Assembly (NCBI GenBank): GCA_945860295.1
Contig: CAMAQH010000005.1
Coordinates: 62,001-126,000 of the forward strand
Length of the DNA: 64,000 bases
DNA from: Prosthecobacter debontii
GTDB taxonomy: Bacteria > Verrucomicrobiota > Verrucomicrobiia > Verrucomicrobiales > Verrucomicrobiaceae
Reading direction: 5' to 3'
Both the position numbers and the translations under genes were made by a program. Below are positions 19,513 to 57,869 of the stretch, in pieces. Positions within the stretch are counted from its first letter, which is position 1; the number at the start of each line of letters is the position of its first letter. The notes below the pieces were generated by a model. That model saw only the letters and a list, made by a program, of their open reading frames with translations, ran no database searches and was not told the origin of the DNA.

Positions 19513-20592
19513 ATGGTTTCTATCTTCATCCGACATCTCACGAAGCGCTTTGGACAGCAGACAATGCTGGATGATGTGAGCCTTGAGATCGGCGTCGGTG
19601 AGCTATTTTTCCTTCTGGGTCCGAGTGGTTGCGGAAAAACGACCCTACTGCGCCACATCGCAGGGTTTTACCAGGCTGATACAGGAAGTATTTTCTTTGG
19701 CGAAAAAGATGTGACCCACTTGCCCGCACACAAACGCGAGACTGGCATGATGTTCCAAAGTTATGCCTTATGGCCGCACATGAATGTGGCCCAAAATGTA
19801 GCCTTTGGGCTGGAAGAGCGGAATCGACTCAGGCCAGAGATTGAGCAGCGAGTCGAGCAGGCTTTGGAACTGGTAAAGCTAGGAGGTTTGGGCACGCGAC
19901 GCATTTCTCAACTGTCAGGAGGCCAACAACAGCGTGTGGCTCTGGCTCGTGCGCTGGTGATCAGGCCGCGCTGCCTGCTCCTGGATGAACCCCTGTCAAA
20001 TTTGGACGCAAAGCTCCGCCATGAAATGCGCTCGGAGATCCGGCGCATCTGCAAGCAATTTGGACTCACCGGCATCTACGTCACCCACGACCGCGATGAG
20101 GCGCTCAGCATGGCGGACCGACTTGCGGTGATGGAAGCTGGGCGACTAGCTCAGGTGGGCACTCCACAGGAGGTCTATCGGAATCCCGCATCTCGGATGG
20201 TAGCAGAGTTCATCGGCGAAACCAATTTGATCGATGCGAAAGTCTTGAACCAAAGTGCCGCGGCCGACTTTTTTGATGTGCAGACAGCTTTCGGAATTCT
20301 GCGCGCACGGGTCAACCAGTTTAATTGGCAACCTGAATCTGGCACGCAAGTAATTCTCTCGATTCGGCCAGAAGCGCTCACTTTTAGCCATGTGCTGGAC
20401 TCTCCAAATTGCTTCACCGGTCACGTCGTGAACACGATCTATCTTGGTTCGACGGCTCAGTATGAGCTCCAATTGAAAGACGGGCCGTTAATGAAAGTGT
20501 GTGAGATGAATCCGACCACGATCAGAAAGCCATCAACCGAAGAGACGCGGTTGATGGCGGCCCCGGCAGATGTGGTGATGTTACCACGCTGA
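19513..20592 (+). CDS. ABC transporter ATPase with TOBE domain (PotA/UgpC/FbpC type), orphan
   Basis: A 359-residue importer-type ATPase. Walker A is GPSGCGKTTLL (about 36-46), the Q-loop is in MMFQSYALWPH, the signature is LSGGQQQR, Walker B is CLLLDEPLSNLD and the switch His is in YVTHDRDEAL. A TOBE-like domain fills about residues 235-350. This layout belongs to sugar, polyamine or Fe3+ importers. No permease or binding protein is nearby, so it may serve several permeases encoded elsewhere. Its stop is 2 bp from that of the convergent regulator gene. Confidence 0.93.
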   Translation: MVSIFIRHLTKRFGQQTMLDDVSLEIGVGELFFLLGPSGCGKTTLLRHIAGFYQADTGSIFFGEKDVTHLPAHKRETGMMFQSYALWPHMNVAQNVAFGLEERNRLRPEIEQRVEQALELVKLGGLGTRRISQLSGGQQQRVALARALVIRPRCLLLDEPLSNLDAKLRHEMRSEIRRICKQFGLTGIYVTHDRDEALSMADRLAVMEAGRLAQVGTPQEVYRNPASRMVAEFIGETNLIDAKVLNQSAAADFFDVQTAFGILRARVNQFNWQPESGTQVILSIRPEALTFSHVLDSPNCFTGHVVNTIYLGSTAQYELQLKDGPLMKVCEMNPTTIRKPSTEETRLMAAPADVVMLPR

Positions 20593-20594
20593 AT

Positions 20595-21962
20595 TTAAGC
20601 CGTCGTCTTGCGCTCCTGATTAAACCCCATCTTGCGGTAGAGCGTGGCGATACTGACGCCGAGCATGGAGGCCGTCTTTTCGCGTGACCCGTTGTTATAC
20701 TTGAGTGTTTCCTGGATAAAAGCTCGCTCTTGGCCAGTGATGAAATTGTCCAGCGTGGAGCCGATGGGAAGCTGAGTGGTTCCACCGACAGAAGCCGTAG
20801 TTGGCACTTCAATCTGTTGGCTAACTTTGGTTGGCAGATCCACTGGGCGAATACGATCTCCCTCAGCAAAGGCGCAGGCACGCTCAATAGCATTACGTAG
20901 TTCCGAAATATTGCCGGGCCACGGATATTTCTCCAAAAATTCGAGGGAATAAGAATCGATGCCCTTGACCTTAGAGTCGGTGCGCTCAGCCAGTTCTTTG
21001 AGGAAATGATCGACGAGAGGTTTGATGTCTTCGCGGCGTTGACGCAGAGGAGGGATCTTCAAGGGGACGACCGAAAGCTTGTAGTAGAGATCTTCTCGGA
21101 AACTGCCTTTTTTGGATGCCTCCTCCAGACAAATGGTGGTGCTCACAACAAGCCGAAAATCGGTGCCACTGGTGTTCCAAGCACTGCGACGCGCCTGAGC
21201 CGCATCCATGAAAGTATTGAGCTGAGCTTGAATACGCAGGGGTAGAACATGAATCTCGGCAAGATGGACCGTCCCTCCATTGGCACGACTGAAAACACCC
21301 CCTTGACCGCCTGTGTGACCGAAGAGTTCGGCTTCAAGCGTGTCCTCAGGCATGGCGCTACACTGGAGCTCTTTGTAGGGGGCACTACTGCGGCGACTGG
21401 CCTCGTGTAAAGCTCGAGCGACTATATGCTTGCCCACACCAAATTCTCCTTCAAGGAGCAGCGGACTATCATTATCAGAGACACGGCGCACGATCTCGAA
21501 GATGCGCTGGATGGCCTCACTGTGGCCGATGAGTTTAGAAGATGCGCTAGGGCGAATGGATGGCACGGCTGCAGGCGCGACCGATTCGGCTGAGCTTGGA
21601 TTGTTTCGAGCCAATCCTTGATTCACCGTTTTGATGAGGTCACCGAGATCGAAAGGCTTGGTCAGGTAATCAAAAGCCCCGAGTCGCATGGCCTCAACTG
21701 CGGTTTCGACACTGCCGTGGCCAGTAACCATGATGACAGCAGTATTGGGAAATTGCTGCCGGCACATACTGACTAGGTCAAGGCCGTTAACGTCGCCAAT
21801 TCGTAAGTCCACGATCACAAGATCAGGTGCCTGGCTTCGAATGGCTGCCATGCCCTCGATACCGGTTGTGTAGCCAAAAACCGTGTGTCCGGCTGCTCGG
21901 CAAAGCTTGCTCATGAGCTCCAGAATTGCAGCCTCGTCATCTATGATTACCAGTTTAGCCAT
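20595..21962 (-). CDS. NtrC-like response regulator with degenerate AAA+ domain
   Basis: A 455-residue regulator: receiver domain with D8, D9, phospho-acceptor D52 and K102; AAA+ domain about 140-370; and a Fis-type helix-turn-helix at the end (ASMLGVSIATLYRKM). In the AAA+ part, Walker A is GEFGVGKH (172-179). ELFGH (212-216) is followed by TGGQGGVFSRANGG, so the GAFTGA loop that contacts sigma-54 is absent and the segment is shortened. Walker B reads VHLAEI, with Ala for the usual Asp. The arginine-rich LRQRREDI region is kept. It probably regulates by DNA binding without sigma-54 activation; this is inference from missing residues. It lies just downstream of the polysaccharide locus. Confidence 0.9.
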   Translation of the reverse strand: MAKLVIIDDEAAILELMSKLCRAAGHTVFGYTTGIEGMAAIRSQAPDLVIVDLRIGDVNGLDLVSMCRQQFPNTAVIMVTGHGSVETAVEAMRLGAFDYLTKPFDLGDLIKTVNQGLARNNPSSAESVAPAAVPSIRPSASSKLIGHSEAIQRIFEIVRRVSDNDSPLLLEGEFGVGKHIVARALHEASRRSSAPYKELQCSAMPEDTLEAELFGHTGGQGGVFSRANGGTVHLAEIHVLPLRIQAQLNTFMDAAQARRSAWNTSGTDFRLVVSTTICLEEASKKGSFREDLYYKLSVVPLKIPPLRQRREDIKPLVDHFLKELAERTDSKVKGIDSYSLEFLEKYPWPGNISELRNAIERACAFAEGDRIRPVDLPTKVSQQIEVPTTASVGGTTQLPIGSTLDNFITGQERAFIQETLKYNNGSREKTASMLGVSIATLYRKMGFNQERKTTA

Positions 21963-22122
21963 AAATTTTTAAAATGTGAGAGTCAAATCTGACTATCAAA
22001 TACGCTAAAGTGAATGCCCTCTGAGTCAACGAGGTTCTTAATCCTCCCTAAAGCAGTGAGCCAGCAGCTGGGCTTGGGCAGTGATTACAGGCTTTTTCCT
22101 TAGCGAAAATGTCGCAACGATT

Positions 22123-24726
22123 TTAAAACTCGGAACCAGGCCTTCTCGGCGGTGGGGCTTTGGGGCGCTTGAGGCCATCATCTGCCTGAAGGTCTTTGTA
22201 CATGGCCGAAGTCTCGACTGGGGCAGCATTGATAATCTGAAGCATGAGATCCCAAGCTCCGCGAGTATCTCCAGACGCAGCAAGGACGGAGGCCATTTCA
22301 CGTTTGAGAAAATCTGGTGCCAAGGGTATTCGCATCACTTTTTCCAAGGTTTGACGGGCGGTTTTGATGTCTCCGCTGGAGCGCTGCGCGTAATAAAGCT
22401 CGATCCCCGGTAGAATATCTAAAGGGTTAAGAAGGTGGGTTCGTTCAAGCCTAGGAATGTCAGAGGCTGATAGGGTGGTGGAACGTACAGCAGGCAAGAT
22501 GTGCAAAGCGGCTAGACGAAAAGCTGGCTCGAACTTTCCAGCCTGAGCCAAATCTGAGGCAATCAGACGCCAAGCGATGTTACTCAAGCGAGAAGATTTC
22601 TTTACATAATTAAGCAGTTCCGTTTTTTCGCCTCTTCGCTGCCAGGCCTCGACAAGAAAAAGAACCTGATTCTCCGTTAAATCATCAAGACCGGGATGTT
22701 CAGCGAGGAATTCTTTAAAAATGGTCGGCCAATGCGGCGACTGCGTGAATTGATTTAAACAGAAAAGTTGCATAGGCAGTTGGTCAGCTAGCCTCCAAAT
22801 TGACAAGTGATGTTCTGGATAAGCCGCGAAGTTCCCGAGCATGCCCGAATACTGAGCGAACATGGCCCAACTTCCATCAGCACTGTAGCGGCGTAAAGCC
22901 TCCCGCCATGGTATCAGCGCCATTCCCGGATCGAAGTGCAACCAGTAAAGTCCCTCGTCGATGCACATTGGTCCGTAGCTTGTTTCCACAGCACGCGCTC
23001 TACCATAGTCGAGAAGCGCATATTCTGTGCTGTGACGCATATTGAGGTGGAGCTGCGCCCGCAGAACATAAGGGCGGAAATCGAGCGGAGTGAGATCGAT
23101 TGCGCGACTGATCAGCGCCATCGCTTCCGCACGATTACCGCGCCCAGCTTCAACAACTGCTTTGTCATTGAGGAAGGGAGCCGTAGCCGCAAGCCCCCGA
23201 TCTGTCAGACCAATGCCGATCGCTAGAGTAGCAAAACCAATTATCGCGATCAGCAGACCCGCAATGCGGAAAAGCCAAGTTTCCAGTGGCCCAGTCAAAG
23301 CTCCCAAATAGCGAGGACGAACGGCCATTGAGGCTACGAAAGCAATAGTCAAAAAATAGCTCAGGCCATGCAGGGGCACATCAAAGAATGCATGCACAAG
23401 AGGTAGGCTTGCAGCGATAGCAAAGGCCTTTCGTATCCTTCTACCTGAGCGGCTATCAAGGCTTTTCTTTCGTCGTTGCGAAAACCAGGGGCCCGTGCTG
23501 CTCCAAAGCCAAAAAACAAGCAGCAGACAAGGGACTAGAGTAAGCATACCGCCTTCAAAGAGCAGCCAAAGAACATCACTCTCTGGGTGAAGCGGGCGAG
23601 CATTCGGGTACGGCTTAGAACTCACCAAGGGAAATATCTTTTCAAAAAGACCAAGCCCCCGCCCAATCCACGGAGCATTGACAACAGCTGTCAGAGTCTC
23701 CTCGGCCAGCCACCAGCGCAAATCACGGCCGATGGATTCTGAAATGGGCTGAGCTTTCAGCCTTTCACCTAAATGTGCGCCAGAGACAAGCACGACTGAA
23801 GCCACCGTAAGAATCACTGCCGTGCTGACCAATGTCTTGCGGAGAAACCCTTTTCTCATAGCGGCCGTGGCAAGCCAAAGTAGAATACCAATAAAGAAAA
23901 GAATCAGACCCGCGCGGGACGTATTCAACATGATGCAAACGAGCATCAACACAACACCCGGCACGAGGACGAGCCACCAACGCGATCGTTTGCGAAAAGC
24001 GTCATAGGCCGCAGCCGCGCAGAGCACACTCGAGAAGGCGAAAAAACTGGAAGTGTGATTACGATTTGAAAAGGGTCCCAGGCCAGTGGTCAATCCATCC
24101 ACCAGACTGCGCGGCCACCATGGAACTGACATCACATGCCAAAATTCCATTAGCGATACAATGGCGATGAACATAGCCGCTAGCGCCAAGATACGCAGGG
24201 CCATTCGGCGTCCACCGTCACTGAAGTTTTGGCCAAGGCAGGACCAAAACCAAACCACACAGGCAAGCATGACGAACCATGACTCTAAAGTTGTCCATAT
24301 TTCCGGTGAAATGCTGTTAGACAGAGGCAGCGACCATTCGGTAACTAACCTTATTCGCCACGCCTCCAGAGATCCAAACCACTTTGCTGGCAACAGTCCT
24401 ACACCTGGCGCTAGAGCCAGCCAGATGAGCGCCAACGCGGGCACTCGGCGAAGATTAAAATGCGGGGGTGCCAGGGAAATCGTCACCCCCATGAGCACTA
24501 GAACCATGCCCTGTGACCAAGTAGCACGAGCCGCAGCGAATAAAATCGCCAAAACTGTTGTTATCCCATAGAGCCAGGCGCGCACATGCCATCGGCTCCC
24601 ATTCTCATCAGACGCAGATTCCTCACTGGAGTCGTTGTCCTCATCATTTATCTCTGAGGGCATGGCCACGGAGGCGCCTTGCAAAATCGTCTCCTCAGAG
24701 CCGATATGATTCATTGCTGGCTTCAT
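22123..24726 (-). CDS. O-antigen ligase/polymerase (Wzy_C) with TPR-like C-terminus
   Basis: An 867-residue membrane protein. After a polar, acid-rich N-terminus (about 50 residues) there are roughly ten hydrophobic helices to about residue 500. The ligase/polymerase signature region has GPFSNRNHTSSFFAF and LNTSRAGLILF. The C-terminal 350 residues are soluble and helical with TPR-like repeats (for example FRPYVLRAQLHLNMR). Such proteins join or polymerise lipid-linked glycans in the periplasm. It is the last gene of the polysaccharide locus; its ATG overlaps the stop of the WecA-like gene by 4 bp. Confidence 0.87.
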   Translation of the reverse strand: MKPAMNHIGSEETILQGASVAMPSEINDEDNDSSEESASDENGSRWHVRAWLYGITTVLAILFAAARATWSQGMVLVLMGVTISLAPPHFNLRRVPALALIWLALAPGVGLLPAKWFGSLEAWRIRLVTEWSLPLSNSISPEIWTTLESWFVMLACVVWFWSCLGQNFSDGGRRMALRILALAAMFIAIVSLMEFWHVMSVPWWPRSLVDGLTTGLGPFSNRNHTSSFFAFSSVLCAAAAYDAFRKRSRWWLVLVPGVVLMLVCIMLNTSRAGLILFFIGILLWLATAAMRKGFLRKTLVSTAVILTVASVVLVSGAHLGERLKAQPISESIGRDLRWWLAEETLTAVVNAPWIGRGLGLFEKIFPLVSSKPYPNARPLHPESDVLWLLFEGGMLTLVPCLLLVFWLWSSTGPWFSQRRKKSLDSRSGRRIRKAFAIAASLPLVHAFFDVPLHGLSYFLTIAFVASMAVRPRYLGALTGPLETWLFRIAGLLIAIIGFATLAIGIGLTDRGLAATAPFLNDKAVVEAGRGNRAEAMALISRAIDLTPLDFRPYVLRAQLHLNMRHSTEYALLDYGRARAVETSYGPMCIDEGLYWLHFDPGMALIPWREALRRYSADGSWAMFAQYSGMLGNFAAYPEHHLSIWRLADQLPMQLFCLNQFTQSPHWPTIFKEFLAEHPGLDDLTENQVLFLVEAWQRRGEKTELLNYVKKSSRLSNIAWRLIASDLAQAGKFEPAFRLAALHILPAVRSTTLSASDIPRLERTHLLNPLDILPGIELYYAQRSSGDIKTARQTLEKVMRIPLAPDFLKREMASVLAASGDTRGAWDLMLQIINAAPVETSAMYKDLQADDGLKRPKAPPPRRPGSEF

Positions 24727-47147: not shown

Positions 47148-48257
47148 TCATTTAGATAGAACGAAATTCACGAATTCGTGGAGCCGTTCGTGATATCGCG
47201 GAATCGAAAACTCTTGTGTATATAGCTGATGGTTGGGGTTGTGCTCACATGCCTGACTGCGGTCTTTGCGGCGCACCTCGGTCATGCGCTGCGCAAGTTC
47301 GGATGGCTCAGTTGAGATCAAGCAGTGTAGGTCAGCTGAGTTGAACTGGCGGAATACTTCATGTCCATGGGTGGCTGTCATGATGATCGGCGTCCCTATG
47401 GCCAGTGTCTCCATGACGCTGAGGTCGAGATAACTCTGCCGATTAGTATTCACCACACAATCCACCGAAGCGATCCAGTCGTGGATTCTGGAAGTGAACC
47501 CCACGTCAATGACTCCAGGATCACGCAAAGGTTCGCCACTGCCACACACAATCAGACGGAGATCTTTCCTGGTCTCATAGACTTTCGAGAATGCCTCTCT
47601 CACGATATCAAATCCCTTGATGGGTAGCCGACGTCCGATATAGAGCAAATAAGTGTATTGGGGGTCTAGTGGAATTAGTCCCACGTCAGACGGAATAGCC
47701 GCTCCTGACTGAATATAATGCAAATCAAGGTCTGGACCGATCAAGGACTCATAGATGCTTCTCGCTCCCTCGTTTGGTAGCACTAACACCGATGACCGAA
47801 CAATGAGATCACGAACTGTTTTTTCCTCCATCTTACGCTGCTGCACGGCTTCCGCCTCGTCTCCAAGAATCTCCATCCAAGGCAGTTCGGGACAGTGGGG
47901 TTGGTAGATTACTATTTGATCGGGACGGATGAACGGTGCGAACTGCTCGTAAAACCCGTGGTGCATGAACCACAGGATGCGCGCAGATGCCATTCCGGCT
48001 TCTATGAACACGCTCTGGTTCAAAAGGTATCTTGAATTTTGTAACGTCCTCAAGATATTTGCGGGATTCAGCAATATCTCAGCCTGACCGATGAGGCGTT
48101 TCCAACGGGAACGGAGCACGGTAGGAACGGGTGCTGTGACTTCGATGCCGCGAAGTTTGAACGGGCGTATAAGTTGAGAGATGAACCCTTCCGGCCCTCC
48201 GGAGTTTTTTCTTCCTTCGTGCGGGAAAACGACCAACACTTTATCTCTGAGTTTCAT
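47148..48257 (-). CDS. GT4 glycosyltransferase, cassette copy 1
   Basis: A 369-residue GT-B enzyme starting MKLRDKVLVVFPHEGRKNSG. LLYIGRRLPIKGFDIVREAF opens the C-terminal donor domain; DLSVMETLAIGTPIIMTATH replaces the standard E-x7-E. It closely resembles the protein at 53316-54437 along its full length. Its ATG overlaps the glf stop by 4 bp. Association with UDP-Galp mutase suggests, but does not show, a galactofuranosyl transfer role. Confidence 0.88.
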   Translation of the reverse strand: MKLRDKVLVVFPHEGRKNSGGPEGFISQLIRPFKLRGIEVTAPVPTVLRSRWKRLIGQAEILLNPANILRTLQNSRYLLNQSVFIEAGMASARILWFMHHGFYEQFAPFIRPDQIVIYQPHCPELPWMEILGDEAEAVQQRKMEEKTVRDLIVRSSVLVLPNEGARSIYESLIGPDLDLHYIQSGAAIPSDVGLIPLDPQYTYLLYIGRRLPIKGFDIVREAFSKVYETRKDLRLIVCGSGEPLRDPGVIDVGFTSRIHDWIASVDCVVNTNRQSYLDLSVMETLAIGTPIIMTATHGHEVFRQFNSADLHCLISTEPSELAQRMTEVRRKDRSQACEHNPNHQLYTQEFSIPRYHERLHEFVNFVLSK

Positions 48258-49387
48258 GTCGGTTGGGGGAGTTCCAGAAATTGGCGGGTGACCTTCAGGG
48301 CCTCCTCAATTACCACATTCATGTCGAGGTAGCGATAAGAGCCCAATCTACCTATAAAAGTGACTCCCGGAGAGGCAGCGGCGCGCTGTTGATATTTTTC
48401 CAGAACCGTCATGTCGGTCTTCAATCTTTTGGGGTAGTAGGGGGTGTCGGCAGCAGTGGTTTCTTTGCTGAATTCGGTGAAGACGACGGTGCGATTATGT
48501 GTCTCCCAAGGAGCGAAGTGCTTATGCTCATGGACGCGAGTGAAGGGGACTTCCAAGCCTGGGTAGTTGATCACGGCATTGCCCTGGTAATCGCCCTCAG
48601 CCACCAATCGATCCCAGTAAACGGTGCGGTAGCCTAGACGTCCCTCCTCATAGCCGAAGAAGGCATCAATGGGGCCGCTGAAAAAGACATGGCCAAAGTC
48701 CCGCTGCATGGCGGGGTCCCACGGCGTGGAAACCCGAACGCTGATGCAGGGGTGATCCAGCAGGTTCTCAATGACGCGGGTATATCCCGCCTCAGGAATG
48801 CCGACGAAGGTGTCGGCATAGTAGTTGTCATCGTAACTGAAACGCACTGGCAGGCGGCTCAGGATTGAAGCTGGCAACTCTCGTGGACTACAGCCCCATT
48901 GCTTCTGAGTGTAGCCGAGAAAAAAAGCTTCGTAGAGATCCCGACCAATCATTTTCAAAGCCTGCTCTTCAAAGTTTGCTGGTGCGGTGATTGAGGAATC
49001 GGCAACACTGGCGAGGAAGGCTCTGGCCTCCACTGGGTTGAGATGCCTACCATAGAACTGGTTGATCGTGTGGAGATTGATCGGCAAACTGAAGATGCCT
49101 CGCTGCGTTGATGCCTTGACCCGATTCACAAATGGATGAAAGACACCAAAACGATTCACATAGTCCCAGGTTTCTCGGTTGCTGGTATGAAAAATGTGGG
49201 GGCCGTAGACGTGTTCAAGAATGCCTGTGTCTGCGGCCCGCACCGAGTGGCAGTTCCCTGCCACATGATCACGAGAATCGATGACGACTGAGGAGATGTT
49301 CGCACGCTCCGCGAGCTCACGAGCGACGACTGCGCCGGCAAAGCCGGCGCCCACAATGAGAATGGGCCGTTGATTGGAAGATGACAT
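48254..49387 (-). CDS. glf: UDP-galactopyranose mutase, cassette copy 1
   Basis: A 377-residue flavoenzyme that converts UDP-galactopyranose to UDP-galactofuranose. ILIVGAGFAGAVVAREL is the FAD-binding Rossmann motif; VAGNCHS, YGPHIFHTSN, GYTQKQWGCSP and IGRLGSYRYLDMN are family hallmarks, the last near the active-site arginines. Length matches bacterial Glf. ATG at 49387 shares its A with the wzt stop (TGATG), preferred to a TTG one codon earlier. It points to galactofuranose in the exported glycan. Confidence 0.96.
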   Translation of the reverse strand: MSSSNQRPILIVGAGFAGAVVARELAERANISSVVIDSRDHVAGNCHSVRAADTGILEHVYGPHIFHTSNRETWDYVNRFGVFHPFVNRVKASTQRGIFSLPINLHTINQFYGRHLNPVEARAFLASVADSSITAPANFEEQALKMIGRDLYEAFFLGYTQKQWGCSPRELPASILSRLPVRFSYDDNYYADTFVGIPEAGYTRVIENLLDHPCISVRVSTPWDPAMQRDFGHVFFSGPIDAFFGYEEGRLGYRTVYWDRLVAEGDYQGNAVINYPGLEVPFTRVHEHKHFAPWETHNRTVVFTEFSKETTAADTPYYPKRLKTDMTVLEKYQQRAAASPGVTFIGRLGSYRYLDMNVVIEEALKVTRQFLELPQPT

Positions 49388-50649
49388 CAAGATGAAAGCG
49401 TTGCAGGAGTTCGATTCAGTGTCATCGGGAGCAGCACGAGTCCGGGTTCGGTCTCTAACCCTTTGATGGTTGTCTCCTCAAGCACGGTGAAACTCATGGC
49501 GTCTGGATTCCATGCATAGGTGCCAGGATGGCCATCACAGATGCCGAAACCTAGCGTGTAGCTTCCTGGCTTCAGAAACTCAACAGGGAGGTTGCAGGAA
49601 GCCTTTAGATGTCCTGCCTCTGCCGGTTGAAAGGCGAGACACTGCGGCTCGTGTGCGGTGCAGACGCGAACACCATCCAGGAACAAAGCGATGGTAATTC
49701 GTAACTGCTGAATTGGCTGAAGCAGCCGGACCTCTAAATCGATCACGGGCTTGTCATTCCGATGGCAGAGTCTAGGGCCAGCCTCGGTGCCAGCAAGGGC
49801 GATGCTAACTATTTCGATCTGGCTGGCCAGTGGCCCCGAGAACCGACCACTTGTGGTTGAATCGCGACAGACTTCCGCATAGTGGCTGAGAGTCACTTCA
49901 GGAAGCCCTTGGAACGTCAGCCGACCCGCATCCAGAAGCACACCCTGGGTGCACATTGCGCGCACTTGGCCAAGGTTATGACTCACAAATAGGACCGTCC
50001 TGCCGCCTTTCGCTACATCCTGCATTTTCCCCAGGCACTTCTTCTGGAATTCGGCATCCCCGACCGCGAGCACTTCATCCACGATCAGAATCTCGGGCTC
50101 CAGATGGGCGGCGACGGCAAAGGCGAGTCGCACATACATGCCGCTGCTGTAGCGTTTAACCGGGGTGTCGAGGAACTTTTCAACTCCCGCGAAGGCGACG
50201 ATTTCATCAAACTTGGCTTTGATCTCGGCGCGGTGCATCCCGAGGATGGCACCGTTGAGGAAGATGTTTTCACGGCCGGTGAGCTCTGGGTGGAAGCCGG
50301 TGCCGACTTCCAGCAGTGAGGCGACTCGACCATTGAGGGTGATGCGTCCGGTCGTGGGCTCGGTGATGCGGCTGAGGATTTTTAATAGCGTGCTCTTGCC
50401 GGCCCCGTTGCGGCCAATGATGCCGAGAACTTCCCCACGTTTCACTTCAAAATTGATGTCCTTCAGTGCCCAGAAGTCCTCTTGAGAAGGCTGCGGGGTG
50501 AAGGATGCAGGATGAAGCCAACGCAACGGGGCTTTGGCGGCGTGGATCAGTGTATCACTGAACTTACGGTAGCCGCCCCTGCTGCCCTGGTGATTCAGGG
50601 TGTAGCGCTTGCCGATGTTTTCAGCGCGAATGATGACGTCGTCAGACAT
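49387..50649 (-). CDS. wzt: Polysaccharide ABC exporter ATPase (Wzt type), cassette copy 1
   Basis: A 420-residue ATPase for export of a lipid-linked glycan with the Wzm permease. Walker A is GRNGAGKST (79-87), followed by RYSSGMYVRLAFAVA (signature) and ILIVDEVLAVGDAEFQKKC (Walker B). Residues about 290-420 form the Wzt C-terminal sandwich that in E. coli O9a binds the chain end. ATG 50649 gives the standard MSDDVIIRAENIGKRY; the frame is open further up, but that part is repeat-rich. The segment before Walker A (residues 41-57) differs fully from copy 2. Confidence 0.95.
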   Translation of the reverse strand: MSDDVIIRAENIGKRYTLNHQGSRGGYRKFSDTLIHAAKAPLRWLHPASFTPQPSQEDFWALKDINFEVKRGEVLGIIGRNGAGKSTLLKILSRITEPTTGRITLNGRVASLLEVGTGFHPELTGRENIFLNGAILGMHRAEIKAKFDEIVAFAGVEKFLDTPVKRYSSGMYVRLAFAVAAHLEPEILIVDEVLAVGDAEFQKKCLGKMQDVAKGGRTVLFVSHNLGQVRAMCTQGVLLDAGRLTFQGLPEVTLSHYAEVCRDSTTSGRFSGPLASQIEIVSIALAGTEAGPRLCHRNDKPVIDLEVRLLQPIQQLRITIALFLDGVRVCTAHEPQCLAFQPAEAGHLKASCNLPVEFLKPGSYTLGFGICDGHPGTYAWNPDAMSFTVLEETTIKGLETEPGLVLLPMTLNRTPATLSS

Positions 50650-50844
50650 GTGGGGTGTGGTAGCCTGAATTCGAGTTGAGGGTTTTGAGTTGAGTGTTGA
50701 GGGCCTGAAACTGAAGCCGTTAGAGTCACAACAAGCACTCACCTTTAGATCGAGCGAACCTGGAAGACTCAAGGGGTTGCTTATCAATCACTCAATTCCC
50801 TTCGGGACTTCGCAGCTTAACGATGAACTCTCAACTTTGGTTCT
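50650..50844. repeat. Non-coding spacer with degenerate word repeats
   Basis: The 195-bp spacer between hepT and wzt copy 1 carries low-complexity words: GAGTTGAGGGTTTTGAGTTG-type units at about 50671-50701 and, on the other side, CACTCAATTCCC and AACTCTCAACTTTGG at about 50788-50838. On the minus strand this reads as repeated CTCAACTC/CTCAAAACC units. A G+C dip and no gene-like codon pattern are seen. Confidence 0.5.
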
Positions 50845-53315: not shown

Positions 53316-54437
53316 TTAGTTTGATGTGTACTTTGACAGTATAAGATTAGCGAACTCTTCAAGGCGTTCGTGGTATTGCGGAATTGAAAACTCTTGTGCA
53401 TAAAGTTGATGATTGGGGGTATCCTCACGCACCTGACGGCGGTCTTTGCGACACAACTTTGTCATGCTCCGAGCAAATTCGGATGGTTCAGTTGAATTCA
53501 GGCAGTGCAGGTCGGCTGAGTTGAACTGCTGGAATACTTCATGGCCATGGGTGGCAGACATGATGATTGGTGTTCCGATGGCCAACGTCTCCATCACGCT
53601 GAGGTCGAGATAACTCTGACGGTTGGCATTTACCACACAATCTACCGAAGCAATCCAGTCGTGGATTCTGGAAGTGAATCCAATGTCAATGACTCCAGGA
53701 TCAAGCAAAGGCTCACCACTGCCACACACGATCAGTCGAAGGTCCTGTCTGGATGCATAGGCTTTGGAAAATGCCTCTCTGACAATGTCGAAGCCCTTGA
53801 TGGGCAACCGGCGTCCAATGTAGAGCAGATAGGTGAATTGTGGGTCGAGTGGGATAAGTCCCACGTCGGAAGGAATCGCTGCGCCAGATTGGAGATAACG
53901 CAGTTCAAGATCTGGACCAATCAAGGACTCATAAATACTTCGTGCCCCCTCGTTTGGCAGCACTAGTACTGACGAACGGGCGATGAGATCACGAACAGTT
54001 TTCTCTTCCCTCTTCCGCTGCTGCACGGCTTCCTCATCGACGCCGAGAACCTCCATCCAGGGCAGTTCGGGGCAGTGAGGCTGGTAGATGACTATTTGAT
54101 CAGGCTGGATGAAAGGCGCGAACAGTTCGTAAAACGCATGATGCATGAACCACAGGATGCGCGCGGATGCCATTCCGGCTTCTTTGAATAGACTCCGGTT
54201 TGGGAGGTAGCTGGGATTCCTCAGTGTTCCCAAGAGATTGGCGGGATTCAGCCACGTCTCAGGTTGGCCAAAGAGACGCTTCCACCGGGAGCGGAGAGGA
54301 GTGGTGATCGGTGGAGTGACTTCAATACCGCAGAGTTTGAATGGGCGAATGAGTTGAGAAATAAATCCCCCAGGCCCACCGGAGTTTTTTTTTCCTTCAT
54401 CTGTGAAGACAACCAACACTTTATCTTCGAGAATCAT
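53316..54437 (-). CDS. GT4 glycosyltransferase, cassette copy 2
   Basis: A 373-residue paralogue of the protein at 47148-48257, with the same LLYIGRRLPIKGFDIVREAF and DLSVMETLAIGTPIIMSATH blocks and the same length but for a few C-terminal residues (SKYTSN tail). Differences cluster in the first 80 residues, where GT-B enzymes often bind the acceptor. The ATG overlaps the glf copy 2 stop by 4 bp. Confidence 0.88.
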   Translation of the reverse strand: MILEDKVLVVFTDEGKKNSGGPGGFISQLIRPFKLCGIEVTPPITTPLRSRWKRLFGQPETWLNPANLLGTLRNPSYLPNRSLFKEAGMASARILWFMHHAFYELFAPFIQPDQIVIYQPHCPELPWMEVLGVDEEAVQQRKREEKTVRDLIARSSVLVLPNEGARSIYESLIGPDLELRYLQSGAAIPSDVGLIPLDPQFTYLLYIGRRLPIKGFDIVREAFSKAYASRQDLRLIVCGSGEPLLDPGVIDIGFTSRIHDWIASVDCVVNANRQSYLDLSVMETLAIGTPIIMSATHGHEVFQQFNSADLHCLNSTEPSEFARSMTKLCRKDRRQVREDTPNHQLYAQEFSIPQYHERLEEFANLILSKYTSN

Positions 54438-55567
54438 GTCGGATGTGTGAATCCAAAAAAGTCGCGGGAGACTTTCTGCGCTTCCTCAATGACCACATTC
54501 ATGTCGAGGTAACGATAGGAGCCCAGCCTGCCAATAAAAGTAACTCCAGAGCTTGCAGCGGCGCGTTGTCGGTATTTTTCCAGAACCGTCATGTCAGCCT
54601 TCAGTCTTTTGGGATAGTAAGGGGTGTCAGCAGGGGTGGTTTCTTTGCTGAATTCAGTGTAAACAACGGTGCGCTCATGGGTCTCCCAGGGAGCAAAATG
54701 TTTGTGCTCATGAATGCGTGTGTATGCGACATCCATACCAGGATAGTTGATGACCGCATTTCCTTGGTAATCGCCATCAGTGACCTTTCGATCCCAGTAA
54801 ACGGTGCGATAGCCTAGACGACCTTCTTCATAGTCAAAAAATGCATCAATGGAGCCGCTGAAAAAGACATGTTCAAAATCCCTCTGCATGGAAGAATCCC
54901 AGGGTGTGGAAACTCGAACACAGATGAGGGGATGGTCGAGAATATTTTCAATGACACGGGTATAACCTGCTTCTGGAAGTCCGACAAAAGAGTCTGCGTA
55001 ATAGTTGTCATCATAGTTGAAGCGCACTGGCAGTCGGCTCAGGATTGAAGCTGGTAATTCGCGTGGACTGCAGCCCCATTGCTTCTGAGTGTAGCCGAGA
55101 AAAAAGGCTTCGTAGAGATCCCGCCCGATCATTTTTAAGGCCTGCTCTTCAAAGTTTGCTGGTGTTGTGATTGAAGTGTCGGCAACGCTGGCGAGGAAGA
55201 CCTTGGCCTCCGTCGGATTTAGGTGCTTGCCGTAAAATTGATTGATCGTGTGGAGGTTGATCGGCAAACTGAAGATCCCACGCTCTGTCGATGCCTTTAC
55301 CCGATTCACAAAAGGATGAAAGGTGCCGAAGCGATTCACATACTCCCATGTCTCACGGTTACTGGTGTGAAAAATGTGCGGTCCATAGACATGCTCAAGG
55401 ATCCCTGTGTCCACGGCCCGCAACGAATGGCAGTTACCTGCCACATGATGCCGTGAATCGATAACGACCGAGGAGACGCCTGCGTGTTCGGCAAGTTCAC
55501 GAGCGACGACAGCACCCGATAGGCCAGCACCGACAACAAGAATAGGCTTGTGATTGAATGATGGCAT
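54434..55567 (-). CDS. glf: UDP-galactopyranose mutase, cassette copy 2
   Basis: A 377-residue second Glf with intact family motifs: VVGAGLSGAVVAREL, VAGNCHS, YGPHIFHTSN, GYTQKQWGCSP and IGRLGSYRYLDMN. It differs from copy 1 at scattered surface positions. ATG at 55567 overlaps the wzt copy 2 stop as TAATG, so MPSFNHKPILVV is the start, not the upstream Met at 55615. Both copies look active, so the need for two is unclear. Confidence 0.96.
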   Translation of the reverse strand: MPSFNHKPILVVGAGLSGAVVARELAEHAGVSSVVIDSRHHVAGNCHSLRAVDTGILEHVYGPHIFHTSNRETWEYVNRFGTFHPFVNRVKASTERGIFSLPINLHTINQFYGKHLNPTEAKVFLASVADTSITTPANFEEQALKMIGRDLYEAFFLGYTQKQWGCSPRELPASILSRLPVRFNYDDNYYADSFVGLPEAGYTRVIENILDHPLICVRVSTPWDSSMQRDFEHVFFSGSIDAFFDYEEGRLGYRTVYWDRKVTDGDYQGNAVINYPGMDVAYTRIHEHKHFAPWETHERTVVYTEFSKETTPADTPYYPKRLKADMTVLEKYRQRAAASSGVTFIGRLGSYRYLDMNVVIEEAQKVSRDFFGFTHPT

Positions 55568-56835
55568 TACGCGAAGCTTGTAACTGCGCTTCGATTCAGC
55601 GTCATCGGAAGGCACACAAGGCCAAGTTCGGCTTCCAGTCCTTTGCTAATCGCGTCTTCCAGAATATTAAAACTCATGGCATCTGGATTCCAGGCGTAAG
55701 TGCCTGGATGCCCGTCGCAAATACCGAGGCCAATGGTGTAATTACCAGGTTTCAAGAACTCGACAGGAAGAGAGCAAGTGGCCTTTAGGCTGCCTGCACG
55801 GGAAGGCTGAAAAGCATGTCCTTGAGACTCATGCGTGGTGCAGATGCGAACACCGTCAAGGAACAGTGCAACGGTAATTCTTAGACGTTCAATTGGTGCA
55901 CGGAGCCGGATCTCAAGCTCGATCACGGGTTGGTCGCTTCGCTGGCAGAGTGTGGGGCCTGCTTCCGTTCTTGCGAGGCTTATGCTGATCAGTTCGATCT
56001 GATTAGCCAAGGGTCCGGTAAATCGACCGGAAATAGCGGAAAGGCGCGAGTTCTTGGCGTAGCGACTCAGGGCTTCTTCCGTTGAGCCTTGGAATACTAA
56101 TCGGCCATTCTCTAGCATGGCAGCTTGAGTGCATAGTGCGCGCATCTGACCGAGATTGTGACTGACAAAGAGCACCGTCCGACCGCCTTTCGCTACATCC
56201 TGCATTCGTCCCAGACATTTCTTCTGAAACTCGGCATCACCCACAGCGAGAACTTCATCAATGATCAAAATCTCCGGCTCTAAGTGTGCCGCGACAGCGA
56301 AGGCTAGACGGACATACATGCCGCTGCTGTAGCGTTTGACCGGGGTGTCGAGGAACTTTTCCACTTCAGCGAAGGCGACGATCTCATCAAACTTGGCTTT
56401 GATCTCGGCTCGGTGCATTCCGAGGATGGCACCATTCAGGTAGATGTTTTCACGTCCGGTCAGCTCGGGGTGGAATCCGGTGCCCACTTCCAGCAGTGAG
56501 GCCACTCGGCCATTCAAGGTGATGCGACCTGTGGTGGGTTCGGTGATACGGCTGAGGATTTTTAATAGAGTGCTCTTGCCAGCGCCGTTGCGGCCAATGA
56601 TGCCGAGAACTTCGCCGCGCTTGATCTCGAAATTGATGTCCTTCAGTGCCCAGAAGTCTTCTGAAAGGTTCTCGGTGCGCTGTTCACTGTTCGCTGTTTT
56701 AAGCCAGCGCAGCGAGGCTTTGGCGGCGTGGATGAGGGTGTCACTGAACTTGCGGTAGCCGCCATTTTCGGATGAGTGACCTAGCGTGTAGCGTTTACCG
56801 ACGTTTTCTGCGCGTATGATGATGTCATCTGGCAT
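55567..56835 (-). CDS. wzt: Polysaccharide ABC exporter ATPase (Wzt type), cassette copy 2
   Basis: A 422-residue ATPase starting MPDDIIIRAENVGKRYTLGH at ATG 56835. Walker A GRNGAGKST, RYSSGMYVRLAF signature and LIIDEVLAVGDAEFQKKC are intact. The C-terminal Wzt sandwich is close to that of copy 1 (same GICDGHPGTYAWNPDAMSF block), so both probably read a similar chain end. Residues about 43-58 before Walker A read KTANSEQRTENLSEDF and come from a low-complexity DNA word repeat at about 56669-56700. Confidence 0.95.
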   Translation of the reverse strand: MPDDIIIRAENVGKRYTLGHSSENGGYRKFSDTLIHAAKASLRWLKTANSEQRTENLSEDFWALKDINFEIKRGEVLGIIGRNGAGKSTLLKILSRITEPTTGRITLNGRVASLLEVGTGFHPELTGRENIYLNGAILGMHRAEIKAKFDEIVAFAEVEKFLDTPVKRYSSGMYVRLAFAVAAHLEPEILIIDEVLAVGDAEFQKKCLGRMQDVAKGGRTVLFVSHNLGQMRALCTQAAMLENGRLVFQGSTEEALSRYAKNSRLSAISGRFTGPLANQIELISISLARTEAGPTLCQRSDQPVIELEIRLRAPIERLRITVALFLDGVRICTTHESQGHAFQPSRAGSLKATCSLPVEFLKPGNYTIGLGICDGHPGTYAWNPDAMSFNILEDAISKGLEAELGLVCLPMTLNRSAVTSFA

Positions 56836-56894
56836 GGCTTCTGGCGGCGGATCTATTTCAAGAAGCAAGCGACTAGTGCTCCGGCATCCCATCT

Positions 56895-57869
56895 TCAGGC
56901 CAAAACGACAGGCCACCTCGGCGGGTGCGCGGGCTGTGTGGCCATTTTGTAGATGGCAATCGACCAGCCAACGGCCATGCACCAAGCCCTTTGCCAAGTG
57001 CGGATATGATAGAGCTGACTCATCAGAATAAAGGCCTGCATGACGGCGAGATCCAGCATGTCTCTCAACGTGTCTTTCCCCATGACTCGAGTCATGATGA
57101 AGTAACGATTCCGAAGCGTCTGATCGGCATGTTTGACGAAATTACTTTTGTGGTCGCCGCCTTGACTGTCATGCACAGCACGGGCGGCTCTGACATGATA
57201 CATTTCCCACGTGTGCCCCACGGTGAGCGATGCTGCTAAATCTTCGCCGAGCGCTCCGGCTTCAAAATGATCAGGAACCGCAGGCTCTGGCAATGCCTCT
57301 TGACGATACAGTGTGCAGCCGCCGCCTAGCCACTCCGAAGGCATGAGTGCAGGTCCATGAGGGTCGGCATCATGAAGGAAAGTCCAGCCTGGGCCAATGC
57401 AAGAAGAGGCGTAAGTGCTGCGGGCTTGGCCGTTTTCAAAGAACCTCATGAGCCTTTGAGTCAGGCGCCCAGGCGGGTGATAAGCTTCATTGATAAGTGT
57501 GGCGGTGACACCACCGATTCTAGCTGACGAATTAACGGCATCGTAAAGTTGTCGGAGACAGCCGGGTTCAAGGATCATGTCGTCATCGAGAAACCATGCA
57601 AAAGGCTGCGTCGAGGTGGCGACGGCTTGGTTCCTCTGTGGGGCTAGTCCCGTGCGCTGGGCCTTCTGATAAACAATGGAGATCTGGGCGGTAAATCGAC
57701 CTCTTTGTTTATTCACCACGGCCTCTGTTTCGCCGTCATCCGAGCTATCGCAAATGACAACCTCAGCAGGCAGGGCTTCTTGTTGTGTTAAGCTTTCAAG
57801 AAAGCGCTCCAGGATCGGCGCCCGATTACGCGTGGGAAGGATGGCTGAGACTGGAACAATCGACGGCAT
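56895..57869 (-). CDS. GT2 glycosyltransferase (GlfT-like/rhamnosyl-type)
   Basis: A 324-residue GT-A enzyme with VSAILPTRNRAPILERFLES, VVICDSSDDGETEAVV, and a DDD motif in FAWFLDDDMILEPGCLRQLY. EWLGGGCTLYRQEAL and ALGEDLAASLTVGHTWEMY follow. A hydrophobic C-terminal stretch (MQAFILMSQLYHIRTW) may touch the membrane. It starts right at the wzm stop and precedes wzt copy 2 by 59 bp. Confidence 0.9.
   Translation of the reverse strand: MPSIVPVSAILPTRNRAPILERFLESLTQQEALPAEVVICDSSDDGETEAVVNKQRGRFTAQISIVYQKAQRTGLAPQRNQAVATSTQPFAWFLDDDMILEPGCLRQLYDAVNSSARIGGVTATLINEAYHPPGRLTQRLMRFFENGQARSTYASSCIGPGWTFLHDADPHGPALMPSEWLGGGCTLYRQEALPEPAVPDHFEAGALGEDLAASLTVGHTWEMYHVRAARAVHDSQGGDHKSNFVKHADQTLRNRYFIMTRVMGKDTLRDMLDLAVMQAFILMSQLYHIRTWQRAWCMAVGWSIAIYKMATQPAHPPRWPVVLA

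Follow-up and report, generated by a model that had tools for sequence, protein, structure and literature searches.

A GAFTGA-less NtrC-type response regulator conserved across Verrucomicrobiales, with signs of departure from the sigma-54 mechanism

A response regulator without the sigma-54 contact loop

What becomes of an NtrC-type response regulator that lacks GAFTGA, the motif by which known activators contact sigma-54? This question is raised by a gene of Prosthecobacter debontii within the window, that is, the whole 64,000-nucleotide stretch of DNA analysed here. According to the original prediction, its product has no GAFTGA after ELFGH, carries Ala in place of Asp in Walker B (VHLAEI), and retains its receiver residues and a Fis-like DNA-binding domain. 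All of these observations proved accurate, as the following features show.

20595..21962, minus strand: regulator gene, encoding a GAFTGA-less REC-AAA+-Fis HTH response regulator of 455 aa (open reading frame, Pfam, orthologues and tree)
21624..21950, minus strand: receiver domain, aa 5-113, with D8, D9, D52, T80 and K102 all present
21426..21449, minus strand: Walker A, GEFGVGKH, aa 172-179; Lys178 kept, the following Glu replaced by His
21279..21317, minus strand: remnant of loop L1, aa 216-228, HTGGQGGVFSRAN; 21 residues with GAFTGA in relatives
21252..21269, minus strand: Walker B strand, VHLAEI, aa 232-237; Asp replaced by Ala235, Glu236 kept
21135..21137, minus strand: sensor I position, Asn replaced by Thr276 (alignment)
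21078..21098, minus strand: Arg-finger segment; R289 kept, second finger Arg replaced by Lys295
20904..20906, minus strand: sensor II position, Arg replaced by Ser353 (alignment)
20628..20729, minus strand: Fis-type HTH, aa 412-445, conserved order-wide (Pfam and alignment)

The open reading frame starts with ATG and reads AELFGHTGGQGGVFSRANGGTVHLAEIHVLP, as quoted earlier, and its translation contains the strings ELFGHTGGQGGVFSRANGG and VHLAEI. Pfam assigns Response_reg (5-113), Sigma54_activat (144-301), AAA_lid_14 (307-385) and HTH_8 (412-445), all above their cut-offs, and the scores of 128 bits for PF00158 and 34.7 bits for PF02954 establish homology to Sigma54_activat and the presence of a Fis-type HTH. 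An AlphaFold model (mean pLDDT 75.6, pTM 0.51) confirms the folds of the domains, their mutual arrangement being too uncertain to inform mechanism. Among the NCBIfam equivalogs, NtrC (TIGR01818, 309 bits against a cut-off of 558.6), NtrX (NF051870, 290 against 600), the PEP-CTERM-box response regulator (TIGR02915, 245 against 502.6), AtoC and others were all rejected; since every score falls far below its cut-off, the regulator lies outside any subfamily named there.

All 56 genomes searched contain a match to the regulator, and about 30 genomes of the same genus carry an uninterrupted orthologue with 76-86% identity; in every one of these that was aligned, GAFTGA is missing and the Walker B Asp is replaced by Ala, Thr or Ser. 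Comparison with 11 orthologues of the genus gave pN/pS values of 0.077 for the receiver, 0.089-0.137 for the three parts of the AAA+ domain, 0.114 for the HTH and 0.27-0.61 for the linkers, and because synonymous sites are saturated the true ratios must be lower still. These values indicate that every domain, the AAA+ domain included, is under strong purifying selection. One may argue that a sequencing or assembly fault or a decaying pseudogene could account for so many missing catalytic residues in a draft genome of 75 contigs, but the intact gene at orthologous loci, the recurrence of the same losses in those genomes and a pN/pS of about 0.1 refute this, and its remaining chance is negligible.

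Erosion of the AAA+ domain across the order

The original prediction left it to an alignment of verrucomicrobial orthologues to decide whether the loss is fixed. We compared 36 GAFTGA-less orthologues from across the order (17 in the family of the window, 19 elsewhere) with 43 GAFTGA-bearing relatives, residue positions in the regulator being assigned by alignment; the names switch Asn, sensor and Arg finger follow what is established for PspF and NtrC1. None of the orthologues found in the order has GAFTGA (0/36), and all of the relatives do (43/43). The spacing from ELFG to GGT is 9-16 residues in the orthologues versus exactly 21 in all of the relatives, so that loop L1 is 5-12 residues shorter than in the GAFTGA form. 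Orthologues with a normal GAFTGA loop and the Asp, which would point to a fault in the assembly, were not found in the order, and the two features together occur only in distant relatives of other orders and classes.

The losses extend well beyond the loop. The Glu after the Walker A Lys, the switch Asn and the sensor II Arg are absent in 36/36 orthologues, the sensor I Asn in 35 and the Walker B Asp in 33, and the second Arg finger has become Lys in 26 of the 36. In the window protein, where the alignment places Gln at the switch Asn, one Arg finger alone is unreplaced among the switch Asn, sensor I Asn, sensor II Arg and two Arg fingers. The original prediction had overlooked several of these changes, namely Glu to His after Walker A, switch Asn to Gln, sensor I Asn to Thr, second finger Arg to Lys and sensor II Arg to Ser. 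Other positions are invariant: D8, the phosphoacceptor D52, receiver Lys102, Walker A Lys178, Walker B Glu236 and Arg finger R289 are retained in all 36, and an orthologue beyond this set, L034, has Arg at the Walker A Lys position. The GAFTGA-bearing relatives retain practically all residues compared. As judged from the alignment, the AAA+ domain is broadly dismantled and the receiver and HTH are preserved, and deletion of the sigma-54 contact comes together with loss of the residues for sensing and using ATP.

Phylogeny and the order of losses

The Walker B Asp varies within the order. It is replaced by Ala, Thr or Ser in 17/17 proteins of the window's family, whereas the other families, which are 38-56% identical and likewise without GAFTGA, have Glu in 16/19 and Asp in 3/19. 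This distribution implies that GAFTGA was lost earlier, and suggests a sequence of events in which the loop went first and the Asp then changed to Glu or Ala.

In a tree built with the trait's columns removed, the 36 GAFTGA-less orthologues form one side of a branch with support 100/100. They fall within a group of 67 rows (99/98) that also contains proteins with GAFTGA from other Verrucomicrobiota, Kiritimatiellota and Lentisphaerota, and their nearest neighbours are proteins of other orders in the same class (L066-L068 and L107; 92/77). All other rows of this group bear GAFTGA, which is most simply explained by a single loss at the base of the order. Nesting among GAFTGA-bearing proteins is the arrangement of the best tree, although not decisively so: the data do not reject an alternative topology that unites the GAFTGA orthologues (p-AU 0.315).

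Loss of GAFTGA as a side effect of losing RpoN is ruled out, as 22/22 genomes checked within the order encode RpoN. Two GAFTGA-bearing regulators, only 33-34% identical to the one studied here, also remain in the genome of the window; hence sigma-54 regulation itself has not been abandoned. The same genome encodes a second REC-AAA+-HTH regulator without GAFTGA (L004:1090-2406, G000:C2), with Glu-Glu in Walker B and a histidine kinase gene beside it (L004:43-1059). Its long, unrelated branch in the tree points to an apparently independent loss of GAFTGA.

The promoter and a shared palindrome

The region ahead of the regulator gene contains the following features.

22024..22029, minus strand: TTGACT, -35 hexamer of a sigma-70-type promoter of the regulator; TTGAC in all 22 Verrucomicrobiaceae promoters scanned
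22002..22007, minus strand: TAGCGT, -10-like hexamer; spacer 16 bp in the window, usually 17 in relatives
21977..21998, minus strand: imperfect 22-bp dyad TGATAGTCAGATTTGACTCTCA, found once in the genome and lying after the -10 and before the ATG; it may be an operator, on weaker evidence

In the 22/22 Verrucomicrobiaceae promoters TTGAC lies 58-75 bp ahead of the ATG, and most of them have a TAGCNT-like hexamer, a weak match to the -10 consensus, 16-17 bp after it. No convincing match to a -24/-12 element was found upstream of the regulator gene in either the GAFTGA-less or the GAFTGA-bearing group. Many orthologues of the genus have a dyad similar to that of the window in the corresponding position.

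A different palindrome, ATTCTCAAATTTGAGAAT, precedes the regulator genes of the GAFTGA-less order and also those of GAFTGA-bearing relatives. Motif discovery by expectation maximisation returned it as aTTcTCAaATtTGAgAAt upstream of the regulator gene, and it was recovered independently from 20 promoters of other GAFTGA-less families (log-likelihood gain 111, versus 34-40 for dinucleotide shuffles) and from 31 promoters of GAFTGA-bearing relatives (134 versus 41-47). Kinship of the upstream sequences inflates such statistics, but the two groups were analysed separately. We then trained a matrix solely on the promoters from the other GAFTGA-less families and scored regulator promoters with it, using promoters of other genes in the same locus sets as controls. 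At 10 bits or more, it matched 14/16 regulator promoters versus 3/102 of other genes in the window's family (p 7e-10), and 18/31 versus 12/100 in the GAFTGA relatives (p 6e-8), these p values being subject to the same inflation. Of the 13 family promoters with the palindrome, 12 have 5-7 bp between its end and TTGAC, which places its centre near -50. The promoter of the window itself has no recognisable copy at the usual place (best score -6.1), and the copy is also gone in most of the closest relatives of its regulator. From these patterns we infer that the palindrome is bound by the regulator and not by another factor.

The exact form, ATTCTC-N6-GAGAAT, occurs in 0-2 copies per genome of the genus, whereas a reversed-palindrome control has matches in 1/39 genomes. 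One exact copy is often upstream of the regulator gene, and in eight genomes of the genus an orthologous gene for a P-loop protein has a second copy about 100 bp ahead of it. This protein (L234:1971-4232 on G000:C1, with orthologues L235-L246) has about 720-910 aa and weak similarity to NACHT/STAND proteins. Some of its orthologues elsewhere in the family, though not all, have palindrome-like sequences or TTTTCGCAAA repeats there, and the STAND/NACHT-like gene is a lead for a second target. A relaxed consensus gives six matches in the genome of the window, near or inside unrelated genes. Among GAFTGA-bearing genomes, 3/23 have the exact palindrome, too few for a check of -24/-12 elements beside it.

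A model of action and its alternatives

The proposal that the regulator has left the sigma-54 mechanism is supported by the loss of GAFTGA and of catalytic and coupling residues under strong conservation, while RpoN and GAFTGA-bearing paralogues persist. We propose, with a probability of roughly 0.7, that it is a phosphorylation-switched pseudo-ATPase of sigma-54 activator ancestry that acts at sigma-70 promoters and regulates its own gene. The ancestor of the order would have lost the sigma-54-contacting loop, and then most residues for ATP hydrolysis and nucleotide sensing. The AAA+ domain would now be a pseudo-ATPase serving as an oligomerisation scaffold; as the Walker A Lys is kept, it may still bind ATP. 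Phosphorylation of D52 by an unlinked kinase would govern DNA binding, and a dimer or oligomer would then bind palindromes of the ATTCTC-N6-GAGAAT type just upstream of the -35 element of sigma-70 promoters, among them, in most relatives, the promoter of its own gene. From there it would contact housekeeping RNA polymerase directly, without ATP-driven remodelling, and either activate or repress transcription. It is the promoter sequences from which we infer action at sigma-70 promoters, and the position of the palindrome upstream of the -35 makes activation likelier than repression.

A more far-reaching version, held tentatively and with the odds somewhat against it, is an order-wide handover from sigma-54 to sigma-70 in which the operator was kept. 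The GAFTGA-bearing ancestor would already have occupied the palindrome at its own, non-sigma-54 promoter; GAFTGA and then the ATPase would have been lost stepwise, with the Walker B Asp passing to Glu or Ala; what remains would be a pseudo-ATPase switch, either nucleotide-independent or nucleotide-gated, with the STAND/NACHT-like gene as a second conserved target. The GAFTGA relatives share the palindrome and their own promoters are without -24/-12 elements, which suggests that the protein already controlled its own promoter through ordinary polymerase before GAFTGA was lost. Such older control would explain how the regulator survived that loss.

An unlikely alternative is a pure repressor, in which phosphorylated dimers occlude sigma-70 promoters and never activate. 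The dyad at 21977-21998 covers the expected start region in the window, and a GAFTGA-less relative in Caulobacter strongly represses some sigma-70 promoters (PMC10274813). However, other members of the family have the palindrome 5-7 bp ahead of the -35, where activator sites are more typically found. Less probable again is a sigma-54 anti-activator that blocks enhancer sites or forms dead mixed oligomers with the GAFTGA paralogues. These paralogues and RpoN are still available in the genome, and the first Arg finger and the Walker A Lys, which help packing between subunits, are retained; but the promoters of the regulator's own gene have the form TTGAC-17-TAGCNT with no convincing -24/-12 match, the exact palindrome is rare, and at 33-34% identity mixed rings are unlikely.

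Relation to known GAFTGA-less regulators

With its NtrC-family AAA+ domain and a missing or defective GAFTGA fixed in orthologues, the regulator resembles proteins such as Rhodobacter capsulatus NtrC, HupR and VpsR; a list of GAFTGA-defective relatives is given in PMC3162934. The NtrC proteins of R. capsulatus and Caulobacter are likewise of REC-AAA+-Fis order, have L1 deletions around GAFTGA and regulate sigma-70 promoters, with phosphorylation being important (PMC10274813). R. capsulatus NtrC reportedly needs ATP binding but not hydrolysis, whereas Caulobacter NtrC needs both (PMC10274813). Unlike these two, the regulator studied here is without the Walker B Asp, sensor I, sensor II and the switch Asn, and it represents an independent loss in a different phylum.

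The best fold match is Brucella NtrX (PDB 5m7n, 5m7o and 5m7p), a full-length REC-AAA+-HTH protein whose L1 is also shortened and without GAFTGA in the alignment. There NtrX retains the Asp-Glu pair of Walker B together with both Arg fingers and the Arg of sensor II; by comparison, the lineage studied here has a far more eroded active site. Vibrio cholerae VpsR is another GAFTGA-defective relative of enhancer-binding proteins, one that acts at sigma-70 promoters and controls polysaccharide production (PMC3162934, PMC10274813); in contrast to the regulator it binds c-di-GMP (title of PDB 7v2b), and the two are only 24-25% identical in the fold match. The best sequence match among solved structures is Aquifex aeolicus NtrC1 (PDB 1ny5 and 4l4u), which has the same domain order and 34% identity in the fold match. 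NtrC1, however, is a canonical activator of sigma-54 in which GAFTGA, the Asp-Glu pair of Walker B, both Arg fingers and the Arg of sensor II are all present.

GAFTGA-less relatives of NtrC are known; what appears to be new is a lineage that spans an order, was dismantled step by step and has a conserved putative operator. No published account of a verrucomicrobial GAFTGA-less clade was found in the literature searched, the coverage of which was incomplete. Known departures from sigma-54 in this family come from a few proteobacteria, and the route is hard to make out from single cases. This phylum holds the changed form throughout one order, the unchanged form in other lineages, Walker B intermediates with Asp, Glu or Ala, and a common putative DNA site, so that the order of losses, and whether DNA specificity outlasts the mechanism of activation, become directly testable. 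For the GAFTGA-less clade, annotation as a sigma-54-dependent regulator is probably wrong.

Genomic neighbourhood

One neighbouring gene, outside the regulator, provides context.

22123..24726, minus strand: upstream neighbour, a membrane protein of O-antigen ligase type (Wzy_C) encoded next to the regulator in many Verrucomicrobiaceae

The original prediction placed the regulator next to the end of a polysaccharide locus. The adjacency is real, with Wzy_C, WecA-like and glycosyltransferase genes upstream in the same orientation, but it is only partly conserved: Wzy_C or WecA-type genes flank the regulator in many Verrucomicrobiaceae, not in all, and in no other families. An order-wide conserved operon was not found, as the neighbours change by family. 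A role in polysaccharide control, by analogy with VpsR, is possible, with support confined to the neighbourhood. A crude motif search revealed no kinase gene near the orthologues apart from a single match in L045, in a frame of 1337 residues.

On the other side, at 19513-20592 of the window, lies a gene for an ABC transporter ATPase with a TOBE domain, convergent with the regulator gene, the two ends being 2 bp apart; it is kept beside the regulator in two close relatives (L018 and L019). Within the polysaccharide locus, the segments 47148-50787 and 53316-56997 of the window are near copies of a three-gene cassette that represent a duplication, and their genes, named by eye, are glycosyltransferase-like, UDP-galactopyranose mutase-like and a polysaccharide-export-type ABC ATPase.
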